Of a stretch of DNA of 35,397 nt, positions 6,901 through 35,397 are shown piece after piece (the first letter of the stretch is position 1; each line of letters starts with the position of its first letter). The stretch is taken from positions 1 to 35,397 of the forward strand of contig JAFZSL010000014.1 in assembly GCA_017619375.1 (NCBI GenBank). The letters run 5' to 3'. A program made the position numbers and the translations under genes. The notes below the pieces were generated by a model. That model was not told the DNA's origin and ran no database searches. It saw nothing but the letters and a program-made list of their open reading frames with translations. This stretch comes from Prevotella sp. (lineage in GTDB: Bacteria; Bacteroidota; Bacteroidia; Bacteroidales; Bacteroidaceae).

Positions 6901-6908
6901 GGGATTTT

Positions 6909-7008
6909 AGGTAGAGATAGGTAGTGATAGGTAGTGATAGGTAGAAATAGGAAGATATAGGACGTTTTAGGTAGATATAGGACGTTTTAGGTAGTTTTAG
7001 GTAATCAT
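6909..7008 (+). repeat. 10-bp minisatellite (AGGTAGTGAT type)
   Basis: Ten consecutive 10-bp units follow the preceding stop codon by 8 bp. They include AGGTAGAGAT, AGGTAGTGAT twice, AGGTAGAAAT, AGGAAGATAT, AGGACGTTTT twice, AGGTAGATAT and AGGTAGTTTT. The array fills most of the 136-bp spacer before the GH28 gene. Confidence 0.93.
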
Positions 7009-8568: not shown

Positions 8569-8570
8569 GC

Positions 8571-8687
8571 TATAGAAACTATAGAGGCTATAGAAACTAT
8601 AGAGACTATAGACGCTATAGATGCTATAGAAACTATTGAGACTATAGAGACTATTGAGACTATAGAAACTATTGAGACTATAGAAAT
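8571..8687. repeat. 9-bp minisatellite (TATAGAAAC type)
   Basis: Thirteen consecutive 9-bp units are present: TATAGAAAC, TATAGAGGC, TATAGAGAC, TATAGACGC, TATAGATGC, TATTGAGAC and TATAGAAAT variants. The last unit overlaps the minus-strand stop codon of the subtilase by one base. The array fills the space between that stop and the convergent terminator. Confidence 0.93.
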
Positions 8688-10879
8688 TATGGCATCCTCA
8701 CAAGTGTGGACCCCGTGGAAGCGGAGTCTGCGCCATCCACCTGGACGGCATACACCCCCTTGGGAAGATGGGAGAGGTCGATGTGGAGATGATTGCCTTC
8801 CGGCACACCCTGGTGACGCATCAGCAAGACGCCCGCCGTGTCATATACCCGAATGGCCACCGGAGCCGCCATTTCACGCTCGAAAGAAAGGGATAACATG
8901 CCGTCGCGCAGGGAGAAGGCCACCTCCTTCGGTTGGTGGAAAGACACGCCCTCGATGCGGGAGATGCCCAAGATGCTGAGCAAACCGGCATAAGCGTCTA
9001 TCTCACCATATCCGTAAAGGTTGTTGGGGTATTCGAGCGACGGGTCGTAATGCCGCGAGGTTTCAGCGATGACTTCAAGAGCCTCTTGTGGCGAGAGGTC
9101 GGGCTTGGCCTCCAACCACAGGGCGATGGCTCCCGCCACCACGGGCGTCGACATGGACGTCCCGCTGTTGGCGTTCCACGCATAGGTCCTACCTTGGAAG
9201 TCGAAATGCGCCACATCCGACTTGATGTCGCTGGCATCAGGCGACGCCTCCAAATAATAACTGCTGTACGACGAGATGACATTGGTGCCCGGAGCCATCA
9301 CGTCGGGTTTGATTCTTCCGTCGAATGTCGGCCCCACCGACGAATAGGCGCTTCGCTCGCCCGAAGTTCCCATGTCGTAAGGCCTGTACTCCCCTAAATA
9401 GTTGACGACCCCTGTGCGATAGCCCGTGGCCCCCACGCTGATGACCGACGGCGCGCTGGAAGGAGAGTGTATGGAATAGGAATTGTCGCCCAAAGCCTTG
9501 TCTGCCGGCAGCAGGTAGCCCACACCCCGGAAGAGGTGCACCTCCGTCTCCTCACCCACGATGTCCACACCGGCAAAGTAGTCTCGTCCCAGATTCTTGT
9601 CCGTCTGAAGGATGACCTCCAACACGTTTTCCTCGCTGTTGAACGCGGAAGGATAGCACGACGCGGTGATGTAATAAGGCTTTTCACCCACGAGCAGCGT
9701 GTCGGTGAGGAGCGAGTCGGGCATGCTGTAGACCATGTCCACGGTGACCGGCCTTTCCATGTGTTGCCCGTCGGTGCCTTGGAGTTGGAAGAGGAGTGTG
9801 TAACGGTCGGACATTCCCTTTGCAGAGAAATAGGCCGTGGTGCCTGACGAGAGGAGCGTCACGGAAGTGGAAGGTATCCCGACAGGTTTGCAGACATGCG
9901 TGGTCAGTTGCCCGGAGTTGCCGGCAGATGCCACGAGGATATGCCCCGGCCCCGTGATGCTGTCGAGGATGGCATAGTAGAGCACGTCATCTCCCCTGAA
10001 GTCCATCGACGACCCTTCGCTGAACGACACCACGCAAGGTTTCCCCACGGCGTCGGCATAATCGAAGATGTACTTGAAGCCCAGGCAGTCGGTGGCGTAA
10101 GTGAACTTGTCGATATCGGCGGAGTCGATGAGTGCGAGGTCTTCCGTCACGGCATTGCTCACCAGGCAGATGTCGGCTCCCGGAGCCATACCCCGGTATT
10201 CGGTGTCGTAGCCACTGCCCGCAGCAGAGCCGAGGGTGTGGGTGCCATGCGACTGAATGCCGGCATCGCGTGAATGGGCGTAGGCCTTCAGCGCCTCCTC
10301 GGTGACATAGTCGGCCCCCACGTACAGGCTGCTGCCCACGGTGTCGGTGGAGAGGAAGTCCCAGAAGCGCTTGATGCGGTACTCCGTAAGTTCCCGGTTG
10401 TAGAAATTGGGATGTGTGAGGTCGAAGCCGATATCCTCGACACCCACCACCACGCCCTGTCCCGTGAAGGCGTGGGGCAAGGCGTCGCCGCTATGAGCGC
10501 GGGCACCGCCCATCAGCACCGTGGTGGTGTCCATCAGCAGCGAGTGAGACTGACGTGCCTCTATGCGCTGCACCTGCGGATGCAGGGAGAGAGCCGGCAG
10601 GCAACGCAGCGGTATGCTGGCGATGTAGATGTCGCCCCACTGCGCCAGGGGTCGACAACCCATGGAACGCAGCACCTCGCCACCCTCGCCGTCGACGCGG
10701 ACGAAGGCACACACCTCGCCACCGCCATCACGTGCGGGAAGATGACGTGCCTTCCCACGCTCCTGCAGGGTGAGTTGACGTATCATCGACGACATCTTTC
10801 CATAGTCGGAATATTGTGCAAAAGCAGTGGAAGCACACCACAGGCACATCAAAAGGAATATAATCTTGCGCATTTTCAT
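8687..10879 (-). CDS. Secreted S8 (subtilisin-like) serine peptidase
   Basis: From the ATG at 10879 the protein has 730 residues and starts with a signal peptide (MKMRKIIFLLMCLWCASTAFA). The open frame extends 18 codons upstream, but those residues precede the signal peptide and overlap the promoter. The catalytic triad of family S8 is visible: Asp149 in GVEDIGFD, His211 in SHGTHTLG, Ser575 in NSGTSMSTPVVAGA, with the oxyanion Asn321 in VASAGNSG. An insert of ~160 residues lies between Asn321 and the serine region, as in many Bacteroidota subtilases. The C-terminal ~80 residues (AIRVYDTAGVLLM, LPKGVYAVQV) resemble a type IX secretion sorting domain, so surface or extracellular location is inferred. 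The gene stands alone with its own promoter. Confidence 0.92.
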   Translation of the reverse strand: MKMRKIIFLLMCLWCASTAFAQYSDYGKMSSMIRQLTLQERGKARHLPARDGGGEVCAFVRVDGEGGEVLRSMGCRPLAQWGDIYIASIPLRCLPALSLHPQVQRIEARQSHSLLMDTTTVLMGGARAHSGDALPHAFTGQGVVVGVEDIGFDLTHPNFYNRELTEYRIKRFWDFLSTDTVGSSLYVGADYVTEEALKAYAHSRDAGIQSHGTHTLGSAAGSGYDTEYRGMAPGADICLVSNAVTEDLALIDSADIDKFTYATDCLGFKYIFDYADAVGKPCVVSFSEGSSMDFRGDDVLYYAILDSITGPGHILVASAGNSGQLTTHVCKPVGIPSTSVTLLSSGTTAYFSAKGMSDRYTLLFQLQGTDGQHMERPVTVDMVYSMPDSLLTDTLLVGEKPYYITASCYPSAFNSEENVLEVILQTDKNLGRDYFAGVDIVGEETEVHLFRGVGYLLPADKALGDNSYSIHSPSSAPSVISVGATGYRTGVVNYLGEYRPYDMGTSGERSAYSSVGPTFDGRIKPDVMAPGTNVISSYSSYYLEASPDASDIKSDVAHFDFQGRTYAWNANSGTSMSTPVVAGAIALWLEAKPDLSPQEALEVIAETSRHYDPSLEYPNNLYGYGEIDAYAGLLSILGISRIEGVSFHQPKEVAFSLRDGMLSLSFEREMAAPVAIRVYDTAGVLLMRHQGVPEGNHLHIDLSHLPKGVYAVQVDGADSASTGSTLVRMP

Positions 10880-10934: not shown

Positions 10935-11045
10935 TTTGCCTTGCATTGGTTTGATTTTTTTTTGATTTTTACTCATTTATATTTAACATTGGCTGCGCCC
11001 AAGATACTTACGCTCGGGAAAGAAAACAAAAAAACTGTTTTTTGT

Positions 11046-11076
11046 TTTGATTTCCGCTCGCTAATTCGTATCTTTG
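11046..11076 (+). promoter_or_regulatory. Promoter of the M6 peptidase gene
   Basis: TTTG (11046-11049) is followed after exactly 19 bp by TATCTTTG (11069-11076), a full match to the Bacteroidota consensus. The in-frame ATG at 11074 lies inside the -7 box, so translation must start downstream, at 11182. Confidence 0.85.
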
Positions 11077-11181
11077 CATGCTTTTAACCAAAATCAAAAA
11101 ATCCTTTTTTCGACTTGGCAAAAAGAACATCCTACACAAAAAGTATTTGATACAGAAAACCTAATCAAAAAAGCAATAAGA

Positions 11182-13857
11182 ATGAGAAGAAACATTTATG
11201 AGACCCTCCGCAAGGGTTTGGTGCTTGCCATACTGGCATGCTGCACCATGACAGCCAGCGCTGTTCCGGCCAAACCAGGTTTGGTGCGCACCATACAGTT
11301 GGTCGACGGCACCACCGTCACCGCCCGCCTGGTGGGAGACGAGTTCGGCCATTACTGGCTGGCCGAGAACGGCAAGGCCTACCAAGCCAATGCCTCCGGA
11401 CGCTATGTCACCATCGATGCGCAAGCAATAAACACCAAGGCCGCCGTTCGTCGCAGCCAGGCCAACGCACAACGCATCGGCCGCCTTGCCGCCCCCAGGA
11501 AAGTGGGCTCGGTGGGCAATTACACCGGTTCGAAGAAAGGACTGATCATCTTGGTCAATTTCAAAAATGAATCTTTCAGTTCAACCAATGCGCAGTGGAA
11601 CAACATCGCCAACACGCCGAACTACGTCAGCGGCAAATTCAAGGGGTCGATGTACGACTATTTCTACGCCCAAAGCGATGGACAATTCCAACTGACTTTC
11701 GATGTGGTAGGACCTGTCACGGTTTCAAGAGACATGTCCTACTACGGCAGCAATGATTCCAACGGTGACGACATACACCCTGCCACCATGGTGCGTGAGG
11801 CTTGTCAACTGGCCAACCAATATGTGAACTACGCCGACTATGACTGGGACGATGACACCTACGTGGACCAAGTCTATGTGGTGTACGCCGGCAAGGGCGA
11901 GGCCGACGGCGGTTCTGATGACACCATCTGGCCCCACGCCTGGTCGCTGAGTTCGGCTGGCGTAGGCACGCTGACCCTTGATGGCAAGAAAATCGACAGC
12001 TATGCCTGTGGCGGCGAATTAAACGGCAGTACCGGAGCCGTTGCCGGCCCCGGCACCATGTGCCATGAGTTCAGCCACTGCCTGGGCTACCCCGACTTCT
12101 ACGACACCGACTACAGCGGTGGCCAAGGCATGGGCAACTGGGACCTGATGGACAGTGGTTCGTATAATGGCGACGGCTACCAGCCGGCTGGCTACACCAG
12201 TTACGAGCGCTGGGTGGCAGGATGGCATACACCCATCGAGTTGACCGCCTCAAAAGCGGTGACGAGAATGAAATCACTTCAGGAAGGCGGCGAGAGTTAC
12301 ATCATTTACAACAGCGGCAACAGCAACGAATACTACCTGCTGGAGAACCGCCAAAAGACCGGATGGGATGCCAGTCTGCCCGGCAAGGGCCTGCTCATCA
12401 TCCACGTGGACTACAACGCTTCGATATGGAACAACAACAAACCCAACGACGACCCCAGCCACCAAAGGATGACCTGGATACCCGCCGACAACCAATACCA
12501 ATATTACTACTCTCAAGGCTACAAGGTCTACACGGAGTCAGGCATGGCAACCGACCCCTTCCCCTATGGCTCGGTCAACTCCTTTAGCGCCAACTCCACC
12601 CCCGCCGCCAAATGGTATAACAAAGATGCCAACAACAGCTATTACCTCGACTCGTCCATAGAAAACATCACGCAGAATTCCGACAAGACCATCTCGTTCA
12701 ATTTCAAATCGAGCATTATCGCCAACCCCGTCTTCTCTCCTGAACCTGGCCAATATGACAACCAAGTAGTGGTCACCATAACTAGCGACAGCGAGGACGC
12801 CACCATCTATTACACCACCAACGGCACCACCCCCACCACCAACAGCAAGACCTACACCGGCCCCTTCGAAATCACGGAGACCACCACCCTCAAGGCCATC
12901 GCCGTGGCCAATGGCAAGCAAAGCCAAGTGACCACCGGCCAATACGTGATTGTCCAAACGAGCAACGTGGCCACTCCTTCATTCTCGCCAGCGCCAGGCC
13001 AATATGACAAACCCATACTCATCAAAATGAGTTGCGAGACCGAAGGCGCCACCATCTACTACACCACGGACGGTTCGACCCCGACCACCAACAGCACTCC
13101 CTACGTCAAAACGTTCTACATCGATGAAAGCACCACCTTCAAAGCCATCGCCGTGGCAGATGGCGAAGAAAGCAAGGTGGCCATTGCAAAATATACAATT
13201 GGCGATTGCATGACTTTCAAACGTGTGGAGAAATACACCAAGTTGGTGAGCGGCAAGCGTTATATCATCGCGGCCAAGGACAAGAACTCCGCAGCCGGGC
13301 CGCTGGTCACAAACAGCTCCAGCAGTTATCTCAAGAAAGTGGAGGTGAACGAGGTTGACGACTGCATCAACATTGGAGCAGACAGCGACGTGCTGGTCTT
13401 CACCCTTGAGGGTAGCGGAACCTCCTGGACTTTGAAAAACGAGGAAAACGGCTACTTGTATTCCACTGGCGAAAAGAATGTGACATTCACCAACAGCCAG
13501 CCAAGCAGCAAGTGGACCATCTTCAACTCCTCCACCGGCGTCGCCATGAAATATGGAAGTTACAATTTGCGCTACAATCTCAGCGACCCTCGTTTCACCA
13601 CCTACAACACCACCAGCAACATGGTCTATGCCAACCTCTATATGGAAGTTCCCTCGGAGACCATAAAACGCCGTCTGCCCGGCGATGCGAATGGCGACGG
13701 GGAAGTGAATATTTCCGACGTGACACTCACCGTGCAGCACATACTCACCAACTACTCGACAGGCTTCGTCTTCTATAATGCCGACGTGAACGAGGATGGC
13801 ATAGTCATCGTCACCGACGTCAGCTGCATTGTCGACCTCATCTTAGGCATGCCATAA
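11182..13857 (+). CDS. Secreted M6-family metallopeptidase with dockerin-like tail
   Basis: From the ATG at 11182 the protein has 891 residues, with a signal peptide ending near Ala27. The M6 (immune inhibitor A-like) signature GTMCHEFSHCLGYPDFYD supplies His295, Glu296, His299 and Asp305, followed by the GNWDLMDSGSYNG segment typical of the family. Two near-identical chitobiase-C-terminal-like modules follow (about 515-590 and 597-673; FSPEPGQYD/FSPAPGQYD and ATIYYTT repeated). Residues about 680-825 are a beta-rich module of unclear family. The last ~60 residues hold two calcium-loop repeats of dockerin type (GDANGDGEVNISD and ADVNEDGIVIVTD). The dockerin-like end stands where other exported proteins here carry a sorting tail. 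It is likely an extracellular peptidase with substrate-binding modules; the substrate is unknown. Confidence 0.9.
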   Translation: MRRNIYETLRKGLVLAILACCTMTASAVPAKPGLVRTIQLVDGTTVTARLVGDEFGHYWLAENGKAYQANASGRYVTIDAQAINTKAAVRRSQANAQRIGRLAAPRKVGSVGNYTGSKKGLIILVNFKNESFSSTNAQWNNIANTPNYVSGKFKGSMYDYFYAQSDGQFQLTFDVVGPVTVSRDMSYYGSNDSNGDDIHPATMVREACQLANQYVNYADYDWDDDTYVDQVYVVYAGKGEADGGSDDTIWPHAWSLSSAGVGTLTLDGKKIDSYACGGELNGSTGAVAGPGTMCHEFSHCLGYPDFYDTDYSGGQGMGNWDLMDSGSYNGDGYQPAGYTSYERWVAGWHTPIELTASKAVTRMKSLQEGGESYIIYNSGNSNEYYLLENRQKTGWDASLPGKGLLIIHVDYNASIWNNNKPNDDPSHQRMTWIPADNQYQYYYSQGYKVYTESGMATDPFPYGSVNSFSANSTPAAKWYNKDANNSYYLDSSIENITQNSDKTISFNFKSSIIANPVFSPEPGQYDNQVVVTITSDSEDATIYYTTNGTTPTTNSKTYTGPFEITETTTLKAIAVANGKQSQVTTGQYVIVQTSNVATPSFSPAPGQYDKPILIKMSCETEGATIYYTTDGSTPTTNSTPYVKTFYIDESTTFKAIAVADGEESKVAIAKYTIGDCMTFKRVEKYTKLVSGKRYIIAAKDKNSAAGPLVTNSSSSYLKKVEVNEVDDCINIGADSDVLVFTLEGSGTSWTLKNEENGYLYSTGEKNVTFTNSQPSSKWTIFNSSTGVAMKYGSYNLRYNLSDPRFTTYNTTSNMVYANLYMEVPSETIKRRLPGDANGDGEVNISDVTLTVQHILTNYSTGFVFYNADVNEDGIVIVTDVSCIVDLILGMP

Positions 13858-19128: not shown

Positions 19129-20148
19129 TTAGTGCAAAATGAAGTAGACAAGTTGCTTGAGGAGGTCTCCAGGAGAGGTGTTGGGGCTCCCCACACCCTT
19201 GCTTTTCGCATCAGTTTCCCTTATTTCATGGATGATTTGCATTGTTTTGACGGCATTGAAGGTTTTGAGGGCCTTGACATAGTCTTTCGCCGCCCATTCA
19301 GACTTCATCCCAAGAGCCATCGCCACTCCCCTCTCCGTGTTCTTGTCTGGGGCATAATGTGCCACCATGAGGTTTTGGAAAAAAGAGAAGAGTGCAGGCA
19401 GGAAAGAGTACAGCGAAGCCGTCTTTGGGTTTTTGTCAATAAAATTCACGATTCTGTTAGCCTTCACCACATCTCTTTCAATCAGAGCGTTTTTGAGTTC
19501 GAAGGCGTTATACTCCTTGCTGATGCCTATTTTCTGCTCCACCAGTTCGCAAGTAACCACCCTATTGTCGTCCGGCAACGAGATGAGCGTCTTGTCTATT
19601 TCAGACGCCACCCTTGCCAGATCGTTGCCGATGAAGTCTGCCACCATTTGCTTGGCCTTGCCCTCTATGGTGGCCCCTTTCTCCTTCACGTAGTTGTCGA
19701 TGAAGGTCGGCACCAAGTAGTCTTTCATCTTTTCGCTTTTGAACACCACGCCAAGGGCTGCCGCCTTTGTCATGAATTTCTTTCTTGCATCGATGGTGCC
19801 CTGCTTGTAACACAAGACAAGGATGGTCGACATCAAAGGTTTCTCCAGATAGGCATCCAGGCGATCCCAACTCTTTACATTCTGCGCCTCTTTGACAATG
19901 ACCACCTGATGCTCCGCCATCATTGGGAATCGTTTGGCCATGTCGATGACCTGGGCCGCATTGGTATCCAGTCCATACACCACGGTCTGGTTGAAGTCTC
20001 GCTCCTCAGGAGCCATGACATTGTTTTCGATATAGTCACTCACCTTATCTATATAATAAGGTTCATCTCCCATAAGGATGTATATGGGATAGTATTTCCT
20101 CGCGGCCAGGTCGCGCATGATGGAGTCGTAGGTGTGTTTTGCTGCCAT
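19129..20148 (-). CDS. holA: DNA polymerase III delta subunit
   Basis: The 339-residue protein matches the delta subunit of the clamp loader, which opens the sliding clamp during replication. Visible family features are the N-terminal PIYILMGDEPYYIDKVSDYI segment, FPMMAEHQVVIVKEAQ, and the helical middle part (GKAKQMVADFIGNDLARVASEIDKT). The C-terminal region (LYSFLPALFSFFQNLMVAHYA) corresponds to the collar-forming domain. Length is normal. It is preceded by two tandem copies of a consensus promoter repeat and followed by a strong terminator, so it is a single-gene unit. It is divergent from the HsdR-N gene. Confidence 0.93.
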   Translation of the reverse strand: MAAKHTYDSIMRDLAARKYYPIYILMGDEPYYIDKVSDYIENNVMAPEERDFNQTVVYGLDTNAAQVIDMAKRFPMMAEHQVVIVKEAQNVKSWDRLDAYLEKPLMSTILVLCYKQGTIDARKKFMTKAAALGVVFKSEKMKDYLVPTFIDNYVKEKGATIEGKAKQMVADFIGNDLARVASEIDKTLISLPDDNRVVTCELVEQKIGISKEYNAFELKNALIERDVVKANRIVNFIDKNPKTASLYSFLPALFSFFQNLMVAHYAPDKNTERGVAMALGMKSEWAAKDYVKALKTFNAVKTMQIIHEIRETDAKSKGVGSPNTSPGDLLKQLVYFILH

Positions 20149-20178: not shown

Positions 20179-20210
20179 TTTCGTTCTATGTCGGGATTTT
20201 ATTATCTTTG
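20179..20210 (+). promoter_or_regulatory. Promoter of the HsdR-N / TerB-J unit
   Basis: TATCTTTG at 20203-20210 is a full -7 box; TTTC at 20179-20182, 20 bp upstream, is a near-consensus -33. The box abuts the minus-strand holA P1 box and together they read as the palindrome-like TATCTTTGCAGTGCAAAGGTA (20203-20223). Confidence 0.55.
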
Positions 20211-20214
20211 CAGT

Positions 20215-20293
20215 GCAAAGGTAGTGAAAGCCGAACGGAATACAAAATGAATCCTTTCATTTTTATTCAAGAGGCGTATCCTACCTTCGCGAA
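20215..20293. repeat. Promoter-bearing tandem repeat, unit 1 (holA locus)
   Basis: This 79-bp unit starts GCAAAGGTAGTGAAAGCCGA and is followed directly by a second copy. On the minus strand it carries holA promoter P1: TTTG (20246-20243), 19 bp, TACCTTTG (20223-20216). An inverted repeat AAAATGAA/TTCATTTT (20244-20251, 20256-20263) overlaps the -33 box. The unit ends CCTACCTTCGCGAA, which is partly inverted relative to its start. Related units occur before pyrE. Confidence 0.88.
20216..20246 (-). promoter_or_regulatory. holA promoter P1
   Basis: TTTG-N19-TACCTTTG on the minus strand is a full consensus Bacteroidota promoter. Transcription would start near 20209, about 60 bases before the holA start codon. 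Confidence 0.8.
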
Positions 20294-20355
20294 GCAAAGG
20301 TAGTGAAAGCCGAACGGAATACAAAATGAATCCTTTCATTTTTATTCAAGAGGCG
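20294..20355. repeat. Promoter-bearing tandem repeat, unit 2 (holA locus)
   Basis: This is the second copy, identical to the first over ~62 bp up to AAGAGGCG, after which the sequences diverge. It supplies holA promoter P2: TTTG (20325-20322), 19 bp, TACCTTTG (20302-20295). The plus-strand ATG at 20326 lies in this copy, as the ATG at 20247 lies in unit 1. Confidence 0.88.
20295..20325 (-). promoter_or_regulatory. holA promoter P2
   Basis: This is a second identical TTTG-N19-TACCTTTG promoter, 79 bp upstream of P1, produced by the tandem duplication. Confidence 0.72.
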
Positions 20356-20436
20356 CCAAAACCCATGGCACTTGGATTGCCAGAAAACCAGGAAGCCAGA
20401 AAAAGGCTCATCTTCAGAAACGACATGCCCGACTCC

Positions 20437-20895
20437 ATGCAAGCCCTGAACCTCCCTCCTTACGCAGCCAAGGTCGCCTATCGTGATGGCAAGCGTATGA
20501 TTTTCGACAAACTCCGTCGGAAATACGTCTCGTTGACGCCCGAGGAGTGGGTTCGCCAGCATTTCGTCAATTATCTGACCGTCCACATGGGTTATCCTTC
20601 AACGATGCTTGCCAACGAGGTGGAGTTGAGCATCGGCCAGAAGCGCCTGCGTTGCGACAGCGTCCTCTATGGCCTTCGTGCCGAGCCGCGCATGATCATC
20701 GAGTACAAGGCCCCCACCATTTCTCTCACGCAGAAGGTGTTCGACCAGGTATCCGTCTACAACCTCCTACTCCATGTGGACTATCTGGTGGTGAGCAACG
20801 GCTTGCTTCACTACTGCTGCAAGATGGATTACGAAAATCAAAAATATTTATTCTTGGATGGAATTCCAAGTTACGAAAAAATTCAACAAACTTAA
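20437..20895 (+). CDS. Type I restriction HsdR N-terminal-domain protein (stand-alone)
   Basis: The protein carries the N-terminal nuclease-like domain of type I restriction R subunits without any helicase part. A PD-(D/E)xK-type core is visible: CDSVLYGLRAEPRMIIEYKAP, giving a catalytic Asp followed by Glu-x-Lys (EYK). From the ATG at 20437 it has 152 residues, the size of the small family in Bacteroidota, whose members typically open with a LNLP segment (MQALNLPPYAAKVAYRDG here). The frame is open to 20326, but its first 10 codons lie in the duplicated promoter repeat and are therefore probably not original coding sequence; ATG 20425 is also possible. No methylase or specificity subunit is near, so this is not a restriction system. 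The TerB/J-domain gene starts 11 bp downstream. Role unknown. Confidence 0.8.
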   Translation: MQALNLPPYAAKVAYRDGKRMIFDKLRRKYVSLTPEEWVRQHFVNYLTVHMGYPSTMLANEVELSIGQKRLRCDSVLYGLRAEPRMIIEYKAPTISLTQKVFDQVSVYNLLLHVDYLVVSNGLLHYCCKMDYENQKYLFLDGIPSYEKIQQT

Positions 20896-23430: not shown

Positions 23431-23612
23431 GGAGTTAAAGGGGAGTATGTTTGGTTCGGGAGTTAAAGAGGAGTTAAAGGGGAGTTAAAGAGGAGTTAAA
23501 GGGACGTATGCCAATGCACACCAACCCCAAAGGGGTGACAGAACACAGACGGGGGTGTCAACCCCCGGGAAAGGGACGTATGTCTATTTGGTTCGGGAGT
23601 TAAAGGGGAGTT
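23431..23612. repeat. 11-bp repeat cluster (GGAGTTAAAGG type) with hairpins
   Basis: Units of GGAGTTAAAGG and AGAGTTAAAGG-like variants occur at 23431-23441, 23458-23502 and 23594-23612. Between them, short modules with GGGACGTATG and TTGGTTCGGGAGTTAAAG recur, plus G/C-run palindromes near 23523-23570 (CCCCAAAGGGG; GGGGGTGTCAACCCCC). No gene is seen in the 23306-23734 spacer. The same unit appears inverted at 27976-28118. Confidence 0.8.
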
Positions 23613-27975: not shown

Positions 27976-28118
27976 CCTTTAACTCCCCTTTAACTCCCCT
28001 TTAACTCCCCTTTAACTCCCCTTTAACTCCTCTTTAACTCCTCTTTAACTCCTCTTTAACTCCTCTTTAACTCCTCTTTAACTCCTCTTTAACTCCTCTT
28101 TAACTCCTCTTTAACTCC
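27976..28118 (-). repeat. 11-bp minisatellite, 13 units (CTTTAACTCC core)
   Basis: Thirteen perfect 11-bp units fill the spacer between two divergent genes. The first five are CCTTTAACTCC and the next eight are TCTTTAACTCC, so one variable base splits the array into two homogeneous blocks. Read on the minus strand the unit is GGAGTTAAAG(A/G), the same as the cluster at 23431-23612. Confidence 0.96.
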
Positions 28119-30949: not shown

Positions 30950-31049
30950 AGGAGAAAATAGGAAGAAACAGGAGAATTTAGGAGGTCTTAGGAGATTTTA
31001 GGAGGTCTTAGGAGGTCTTAGGAGATTTTAGGAGGTCTTAGGAGGTTGG
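30950..31049 (+). repeat. 10-bp minisatellite (AGGAGGTCTT / AGGAGATTTT)
   Basis: Ten 10-bp units begin 10 bp after the LD-carboxypeptidase stop: AGGAGAAAAT, AGGAAGAAAC, AGGAGAATTT, then alternating AGGAGGTCTT and AGGAGATTTT. The last units form part of the following hairpin. Confidence 0.94.
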
Positions 31050-34596: not shown

Positions 34597-35235
34597 TTAT
34601 TTCTTCCATTCGGAAGGATTTTTCCTCCATTCGTTGAGGAGTTGGATATCGGCCTCGGTGATATAACCCGTCTCCAAAGCCGTGGCCACCACGTGGTCGT
34701 AATCGGTGAGGGTGACCAGTTGCACGTTGGCTGCCCGGAAAGCCTCCTCGGCAACGGGGAATCCATAGGTGTAGGAAGCCACCATGCCGATGACCTCACA
34801 GGCGTTCTTGCGGATGGCTTCCACAGCCTTGAGGCTGCTGCCGCCTGTGGAGACCAAGTCTTCCACCACCACGACCTTGGCATTGGGGCGCAGTTCACCT
34901 TCGATGAGGTTCTCCAAGCCATGGTCCTTGGGTTTGTTGCGGATGTAGACGAAGGGCAGGCAGAGTGCGTCGGCCACGAGTGCACCTTGCGGGATGGCTC
35001 CGGTAGCCACTCCGGCGATGGCTTCCACTTCGGGGAAATGCTCGTGGATGGCGTGGGTGAGTTCCAACTTCACATAGTTGCGCAACTCAGGGTAAGAGAG
35101 CGTCTTGCGATTGTCACAGTAGAAAGGTGACTTCCATCCCGATGCCCACGTGAAGGGGTTGTTGGGTTGGAGTTTGATGGCCTTGATGCCCAGCAGTCTC
35201 CGGGCAAAGTCTTTCTTGAGGTTGTCCATTTCCAT
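34597..35235 (-). CDS. pyrE: Orotate phosphoribosyltransferase
   Basis: The 212-residue enzyme joins orotate to PRPP to make OMP, the fifth step of pyrimidine synthesis. The PRPP-binding motif VVVVEDLVSTGGSS is clear, as are FTWASGWKSPFYCDNRKTLSYPELR and the flexible-loop region near RNKPKDHG. The ATG at 35235 (MEMDNLKKDFARRLL) is preferred; the upstream open frame reads through the promoter repeat. It heads a five-gene minus-strand unit. The fourth-step genes pyrK and pyrD lie ~18 kb away. Confidence 0.95.
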   Translation of the reverse strand: MEMDNLKKDFARRLLGIKAIKLQPNNPFTWASGWKSPFYCDNRKTLSYPELRNYVKLELTHAIHEHFPEVEAIAGVATGAIPQGALVADALCLPFVYIRNKPKDHGLENLIEGELRPNAKVVVVEDLVSTGGSSLKAVEAIRKNACEVIGMVASYTYGFPVAEEAFRAANVQLVTLTDYDHVVATALETGYITEADIQLLNEWRKNPSEWKK

Positions 35236-35256: not shown

Positions 35257-35344
35257 GCAAAGGTAGTGAAAGCCGAATACAATGCAAAGCAAAAGACGAA
35301 GTTTTTGCTTTCATTGTTGAGGCGCATCCTATCTTCGCCGTCAG
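35257..35344. repeat. Promoter-bearing tandem repeat, unit 1 (pyrE locus)
   Basis: This 88-bp unit begins GCAAAGGTAGTGAAAGCCGA, the same start as the holA-locus unit, and is followed by a second copy. The centre differs from the holA version. It shares the TTTCATT, TTGAGGCG and ATCCTA(T/C)CTTCGC words towards its end. An inverted repeat AAAGCAAAA/TTTTGCTTT (35286-35294, 35303-35311) overlaps the -33 box. Confidence 0.88.
35258..35288 (-). promoter_or_regulatory. pyrE operon promoter P1
   Basis: On the minus strand TTTG (35288-35285), exactly 19 bp, TACCTTTG (35265-35258): full consensus. Transcription would start ~15 bases before the ATG at 35235. Confidence 0.82.
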
Positions 35345-35397
35345 GCAAAGGTAGTGAAAGCCGAATACAATGCAAAGCAAAAGACGAAGTTTTTGCT
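35345..35397. repeat. Promoter-bearing tandem repeat, unit 2 (pyrE locus), cut by window end
   Basis: This is an identical second copy running to the last base of the window. It contains P2, TTTG (35376-35373)-N19-TACCTTTG (35353-35346), on the minus strand. Further copies may lie beyond the window. Confidence 0.85.
35346..35376 (-). promoter_or_regulatory. pyrE operon promoter P2
   Basis: This is a second full consensus TTTG-N19-TACCTTTG promoter, 88 bp upstream of P1 and created by the tandem repeat. Confidence 0.7.

Follow-up and report, generated by a model that had tools for sequence, protein, structure and literature searches.

Repeat copies upstream of holA and pyrE

The DNA analysed here (the window, 35,397 nucleotides from Prevotella sp.) is an entire contig of a 4.26-Mb genome, and two genes on its minus strand are preceded by tandem copies of a repeat: holA, and a second gene that, following the first-pass annotation, we take to be pyrE, its domain match being only to the general phosphoribosyltransferase family PF00156. 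As that annotation had described, there are two copies before each gene, starting at 20215 and 20294 (79 bp apart) and at 35257 and 35345 (88 bp apart), and 4/4 copies carry TTTG-N19-TACCTTTG on the minus strand, a scan of both window strands giving no fifth such string. The features considered below are the following.

10997..11077, plus strand: third, diverged member (R1, 45.7 bits, match on the minus strand)
19129..20148, minus strand: holA, target gene (PF06144, DNA_pol3_delta)
20203..20210, plus strand: opposing box TATCTTTG, facing the divergent gene with an HSDR_N domain (PF13588)
20215..20290, minus strand (that of the promoter): gene-proximal complete unit of holA, 76 bp (R1, 86.3 bits)
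20216..20223, minus strand: -7 box TACCTTTG of this proximal unit, with TTTG at 20243-20246
20291..20293, no strand: linker GAA, 3 nt, between the two holA units (from the sequence)
20294..20355, minus strand: distal unit of holA, without the end of its right arm (R1, 44.1 bits over 20294-20369)
20326..20895, plus strand: divergent gene with the HSDR_N domain, the ATG of its ORF lying within the distal holA unit (true start uncertain)
34597..35223, minus strand: pyrE, target gene (PF00156; 96% identical matches in two relatives)
35257..35338, minus strand: gene-proximal complete unit of pyrE, 82 bp (R1, 100.6 bits)
35339..35344, no strand: linker CGTCAG, 6 nt, between the pyrE units, which with its neighbours can form a GCC/GGC junction hairpin
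35345..35397, minus strand: distal unit of pyrE, cut by the contig end (from the sequence)

The terminal word that had been ascribed to all the copies closes the gene-proximal ones, as CCTA(C/T)CTTCGC; the distal holA copy is broken off after GAGGCG, and the distal pyrE copy is interrupted by the end of the contig at 35397. The promoter of the third member, TTTG-N19-TATCTTTG, reads on the plus strand towards an ORF (11074-13857) with an M6 protease domain.

On the far side of the holA element, the opposing box mirrors its left end (TATCTTTGC-AGT-GCAAAGGTA, 20203-20223). The divergent promoters of holA and the HSDR_N gene form in this way a palindrome of two opposed -7 boxes, a symmetry that persists in relatives without the full element (L140, L219 and L223) and that may be a way in which such hairpins begin.

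Unit architecture and fold

The unit measures about 68 to 90 bp and is one imperfect palindrome from end to end, GCAAAGGTAGTG..CCTACCTTCGC. Primary-sigma promoters of Bacteroidota follow the consensus TTTG-N19..21-TAnnTTTG, and the predicted minus-strand promoter of the element (TTTG-N19-TAnnTTTG) usually lies within one arm, so that the unit terminates in the -7 box; the 68-bp units of two arrays (L257 and L062) are devoid of the -33 box, there being no TTTG 17 to 23 nt upstream of the -7 box in this subfamily. Complete units fold into a single hairpin in which the ends GCAAAGGTAG/CTACCTTCGC pair, followed by GA/TC or GC/GC, then by RCC/GGY and finally by a variable arm. Folded as single-stranded DNA and compared with shuffles, the proximal holA unit reaches z values of -3.8 and -4.3 on the two strands (0/200 shuffles as good) and the proximal pyrE unit -2.8 and -2.5 (2 and 4 of 200 as good); the L257 unit folds poorly (z -1.35, 20/200 as good). 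An inverted repeat around TTTG, with arms differing between the two loci, had been noticed beforehand: both loci do pair, and the palindrome extends over the whole unit instead of being confined to the -33 arm.

Covariation of the arms, which the first-pass annotation had proposed to look for, is found both within and across genomes. When 17 complete copies of this genome are aligned with MAFFT, 94.3% of 459 cells are paired, a level unreached by any shuffle, and sliding the partners by 1 to 3 columns lowers the pairing to 41 to 51%. Changes on both sides affect 15 of the 27 pairs (matched by 0/500 shuffles) and further pair types are not above shuffles (271/500), these counts being inflated by the relatedness of the copies. 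Across genomes, 100 distinct complete units were collected by their end signatures, with a few chance matches likely and the outer columns constrained by the signature, and were anchored at their two ends without structure-guided alignment; among 36 x 34 columns, all of the eight top mutual-information pairs are base pairs of the hairpin, unlike the pair that ranks ninth (columns 21 and -21). Compensation in place is seen in the holA copies of relatives: the pair at the hairpin tip, a mispair in this genome, is T-A in L135 and C-G in L136 and L217.

Several unpaired positions are also kept among the 100 units, namely A3 in 93 (opposite C in 85), T11 in 99, A14 in 99, A15 in 100 and C29 in 93. 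They allow no firm conclusion, because A3 and C29 fall within the promoter boxes, the search signature includes T11, A14 and A15, and TTTGCACTA also occurs in element-free promoters of relatives. The kept palindrome had been read as a sign of selection on structure; that the arms covary agrees with this reading and is not proof of it, given that hairpin-templated mutation is a rival source of the same pattern. Judging from the sequences, the fold may serve copying or promoter tuning, or may be a by-product of hairpin-templated mutation.

Copies in the genome and its relatives

The covariance model gave at least 71 matches in this genome, forming 43 arrays, a lower bound for which 150 of 2,800 first-look candidates were scored. 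The core pattern with up to 2 mismatches matches 24 times in the genome, and a reversed control pattern 0 times. A survey scoring 115 candidates per genome found matches in 21 of 23 other genomes of the same genus and, weakly, in a single one of 16 genomes that belong to other families. It gave more than 50 matches for G009 and G010, one for G016 and none for G011. The close relatives G216 and G065 have 70 and 41 matches, respectively. Contigs of the assembly end inside or near element arrays (the window at 35397; C25, C17, C54, C23 and C11 of G000), and copy numbers are probably underestimated on account of contigs that start or end there. Phage or plasmid cargo was considered and rejected, as 50,697 phage records and 72,556 plasmid records contained nothing that matched the pyrE unit at E 1e-3; one stretch in a viral contig collection (L362) has an exact match to the degenerate core.

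That many copies would lie upstream of genes other than holA and pyrE had been anticipated, and the orientation of the arrays bears it out: the predicted promoter reads into the start of a gene in 41 of the 42 arrays with a called neighbour (p ~2e-11 against 1:1), the exception being a partial match that faces a gene end (L071) and the remaining array lying at a contig end without a gene. At loci of other genomes, which include orthologues of one another, the figure is 40/40, with three more lacking a called gene. Genes were called with a home-made script, and several of its start calls overlap the element or are hundreds of bp distant. The median distance from the unit end to the first ATG, 21 nt, suits a short leader, and the simplest reading of this arrangement would be a portable promoter. 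TAnnTTTG is intact in 82 of 93 gene-proximal and in 33 of 55 distal units (Fisher p 1.6e-4, the units not being independent), a difference that would be expected if the genes used the proximal promoter; in the gene-proximal units, which were found by script, TTTG is kept in 82/93, and a few chance matches are among the -7 box failures. In distal units (L018, L013, L012) the -7 box is often replaced by TACTCTGC or TACTTTGC, and the TTTG at -33 stays.

Comparison of 38 target genes with NCBIfam or Pfam (40 entries, including the HSDR_N gene and with L055 entered twice) named holA, pyrE, lon, ksgA, mutS, a purF-like gene (below its cut-off), lptB, a parC-like gene, wcaJ, a C-terminal processing protease, susR, rsfS, yjeF and FTCD, and several of the 38 had no family match. 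At L010, L051 and L021 a distance of 384 to 619 bp separates the array from the called gene; at L021, where it is 384 bp, this gene carries a Phage_integrase domain (E 3e-6). The named targets are functionally unrelated, and the proposal that the element couples unrelated genes into shared regulation, or a shared regulon, finds no support in them.

Comparison with relatives indicates that the copies at holA and pyrE are inherited and that neither is a recent insertion, because close relatives carry them too: G216 and G065, whose DNA is 92% and 90% identical at holA, have the element at both genes. There are two units at holA in this genome versus one shortened unit in the two relatives, and two units at pyrE in all three, the distal one incomplete. 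The loop of the pyrE junction is TGAC here and AAAA in the relatives, with the GCC/GGC stem kept, and the loop change is the same in both units of G216; the units at holA and at pyrE evolve in concert. A search of 23 relatives located pyrE in 21 of them and holA in 20, and at these 41 loci the covariance model places a unit directly upstream of pyrE in G020 (weakly in G018) and directly upstream of holA in G009 (weakly in G019), many others showing by eye an ordinary TAnnTTTG without a unit. The closest titled holA matches are L135 (96%; Prevotella sp. MAG, sheep omasum) and L147 (97%; Prevotellaceae MAG, RUG13201). The target-gene flank of 20 of the 43 arrays matches a G216 locus (at least 78% over at least 120 nt, one of them a short 79% match), in a comparison that covered the G216 loci taken for the element or for holA and would miss other contigs. 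Upstream of holA, L137, L139 and L140 carry, respectively, the full element, a remnant without the hairpin core between GG repeats, and no element, which is possibly a loss series.

Present/absent sites and possible origins

In two comparisons between close relatives, the present/absent difference is exactly one linker-plus-unit directly behind a resident -7 box. At the parC-like gene of this genome (L009) there is a single unit, and a stretch of 85 bp is absent from G065 and G216: the empty site reads ..GCATTATCTTTGC / AAACTGAATTC.. and the filled one ..GCATTATCTTTGC / TTCGCGAAGATAGG...CACTACCTTTGC / AAACTGAATTC.., with junctions marked by slashes. Over 82 bases the L009 unit does not differ from the pyrE unit of the same genome: both have CCTATCTTCGC, and the pyrE units of the relatives G065 and G216 have CCTACCTTCGC at that place. 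Because this identity includes a base that the pyrE units of those relatives lack, the L009 unit was copied or overwritten after the split from them. The outgroup G335 carries the element at the same parC-like promoter. The linker is TTC at L009 versus CTGACG at pyrE, the apparent donor, and a simple circle-and-insert of the pyrE unit does not fit because the linkers differ. Gene conversion from pyrE is possible, and so is, between the flanking CTTTGC repeats, precise loss rather than gain.

In the second case the site is filled in G065 (L257) and empty in G216 (L308). The empty site reads TAACTTTGC / ATCAG.., and the filled one TAACTTTGC / ATTAGAAAA followed by a unit ending TACCTTTGC / ATCAG... 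The L062 array, also made of 68-bp units of this kind, has a linker that includes all of ATTAGAAAA; at the same time, ATTAGAAAA is one base off the local ATCAGAAAA, a near-repeat that might be a target duplication or the linker of the donor. Common to L009 and L257 is the position of the linker-plus-unit right behind TTTGC. More generally, an intact TAnnTTTG ends within 12 nt at 21 of 54 distinct distal ends (those without a preceding unit in the motif test; 0.5 expected from shuffles), 32 of the 54 have no intact TAnnTTTG in 60 nt, and one has the box further off. The number of units in tandem arrays differs between relatives. Two other candidates were set aside: L014 looks like a replacement of the upstream region instead of a clean insertion, and L011 has no empty site, G216 and G065 already carrying diverged hairpins. 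For L055, the matching target-gene side was not found in the relatives.

A copied promoter cassette had been suggested from the holA and pyrE copies; the two present/absent comparisons fit it, and the holA and pyrE copies themselves are shared by close relatives. On the strength of the sequence comparisons we consider it fairly probable that the repeat belongs to a family of mobile promoter cassettes in Prevotella, short and encoding no protein. An arriving linker-plus-unit would insert directly behind the resident -7 box, giving TAnnTTTGC, the linker with a unit itself ending in TAnnTTTGC, and then the leader, and because of this position the incoming -7 box would be correctly oriented and gene-proximal. 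The filled state would be the newer one, transcription would start a few bases past the proximal TAnnTTTG, the family would persist by supplying promoters, and the conserved fold would be used in copying, as single-stranded or cruciform DNA. As for the mover, both a structure-recognising recombinase or transposase acting at CTTTGC and microhomology-primed template switching at CTTTGC would fit. In a more specific version, speculative and rather unlikely, the folded single strand would be recognised by its bulges and integrated one-way at the CTTTGC of the resident -7 box, much as an integron cassette would be, but with a promoter in place of a gene, and extrusion of the arms would switch the promoter off, so that supercoiling could tune dozens of unrelated genes together.

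If the repeat is such a mobile cassette, about 80 bp would suffice for a new promoter, the landing site being the old promoter's own -7 box and the orientation being right automatically; the usual explanations for new promoters are point mutation and whole insertion sequences. Promoter replacement would become observable between close strains, providing a marker for gene re-wiring in a genus that is common in the rumen and gut, and some of the contig breaks seen in assemblies of Prevotella would be accounted for. A mover, if it exists, might become a promoter-insertion tool.

A tenable, less probable account dispenses with a dedicated mover: snap-back and inter-locus template switching at CTTTGC would copy the units, hairpin-templated correction would keep the arms complementary, and selection would act on the promoter boxes only. 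It agrees with the fact that both insertions share little with their target beyond CTTTGC, with the small inverted repeats that linkers often form with their neighbours (by eye), with the variable loop on a kept stem at the pyrE junction and its identical change in the two G216 units, and with the L139 remnant, whose missing hairpin core (compared with L137 and L140) fits palindrome instability. However, at least 71 matches in one genome are a lot for undirected switching, and templated correction should erase mispairs and bulges, yet between 93 and 100 of the 100 units retain A3, T11, A14, A15 and C29, although the promoter boxes explain A3 and C29 and the end signature favours A3, T11, A14 and A15. 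A conventional MITE or IS-derived element, inserted at random with target duplication and then reduced by selection to the copies that drive genes, is unlikely. The terminal inverted repeats GCRAAGGTAG, the short length, the absence of coding capacity and the many copies are those of a MITE, and L257 and the L062 array lie between near-repeats of 9 and 11 bases; yet these two are the only ones flagged for target-site duplication among 84 distinct arrays (that of L257 may be a donor linker), L009 has no flanking repeat beyond CTTTGC, distal ends are rich in resident -7 boxes, and a single array (L071) among the 42 with a neighbour faces a gene end.

We regard as very improbable a structured RNA leader in the mRNA, attenuator or riboswitch-like, which would account for a covarying hairpin upstream of genes. 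The hairpin of a single unit is a DNA feature because it lies upstream of the predicted start, the -7 box being its gene-side end, and it would be transcribed only from distal promoters, whose -7 boxes are more often broken. An Rfam RNA family was rejected, the search of 9 element loci giving two weak matches, both below the gathering score. Convergence, by which strong Prevotella promoters would share an extended consensus without common origin, might be invoked for strings such as TCGGNTTTTTGCACTATCTTTGC, which also occur in element-free promoters of relatives, but it is scarcely credible in view of the two clean present/absent sites and of the fact that two unrelated genes have units without a difference over 82 bases.

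Judged by its sequence, the element resembles mobile promoters, the BrickBuilt MITE and Correia repeats by action, and attC sites by shape. Putative mobile promoters are upstream regions that carry a promoter and have been copied, within one genome, from gene to unrelated gene. As in them, promoter DNA is present at genes where close relatives lack it (L009; L257/L308), gain being the direction of change that we infer; unlike them, the Prevotella piece is a covarying end-to-end palindrome, often in tandem, that lands behind a resident -7 box. The Correia repeats of Neisseria are short inverted-repeat elements with outward promoters in their ends and a TA target; they are similar in inverted repeats and end promoter and different in sequence and size. 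The simple sites of attC are R'' RYYYAAC and R' GTTRRRY. With attC sites the unit shares the imperfect palindrome with kept extrahelical bases, the variable tip, the tandem arrays and the one-way insertion at a short core, but it carries no gene, its ends are GCAAAGG and CCTTCGC instead of RYYYAAC/GTTRRRY, and its targets are dispersed promoters.

The BrickBuilt MITE of Porphyromonas gingivalis is reported to be an intergenic element with inverted terminal repeats, several with CCTTTGC, and internal tandem repeats of 23 nt, with termini GAGACC.. like those of IS5-family ISPg elements, bidirectional promoters and promoter activity in E. coli reporters, the authors of that study also raising the idea of a mobile promoter (PMC4596501). 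It has in common with the Prevotella element the Bacteroidota host, the intergenic place and the promoter-bearing inverted repeats; the Prevotella element differs in ending with GCRAAGGTAG, in repeating the hairpin as its unit and in having a one-way promoter. REPs, which have associated tyrosine transposases, are likewise short intergenic palindromes in many copies, and a GTAG string lies near the ends of the Prevotella unit, but they occur near gene 3' ends in the two species whose distances are shown, whereas the Prevotella elements are at gene starts (41/42 arrays) and form one long hairpin (PMC3733652). No separate small GTAG-tagged hairpins, as in REPs and BIMEs, were seen, and the element lacks the sequence and position features of REP and attC sites that were tested. 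A description of it was not found in the titles and abstract openings of open-licence PMC papers, nor in passages of PMC3733652, PMC4596501 and PMC8040213, and may exist elsewhere.

The window holds other repeats as well. Short-period tandem arrays (7 to 11 bp) lie at 2289-2414, 6905-7003, 8570-8690, 23458-23512, 27977-28118 and 30959-31046; the 11-bp type CTTTAACTCC occurs twice, in opposite orientation, and similar strings are found near elements elsewhere, for example at L308 and L011. A duplication at 2418-2951 has copies about 310 bp apart, in pieces that are 87 to 97% alike.
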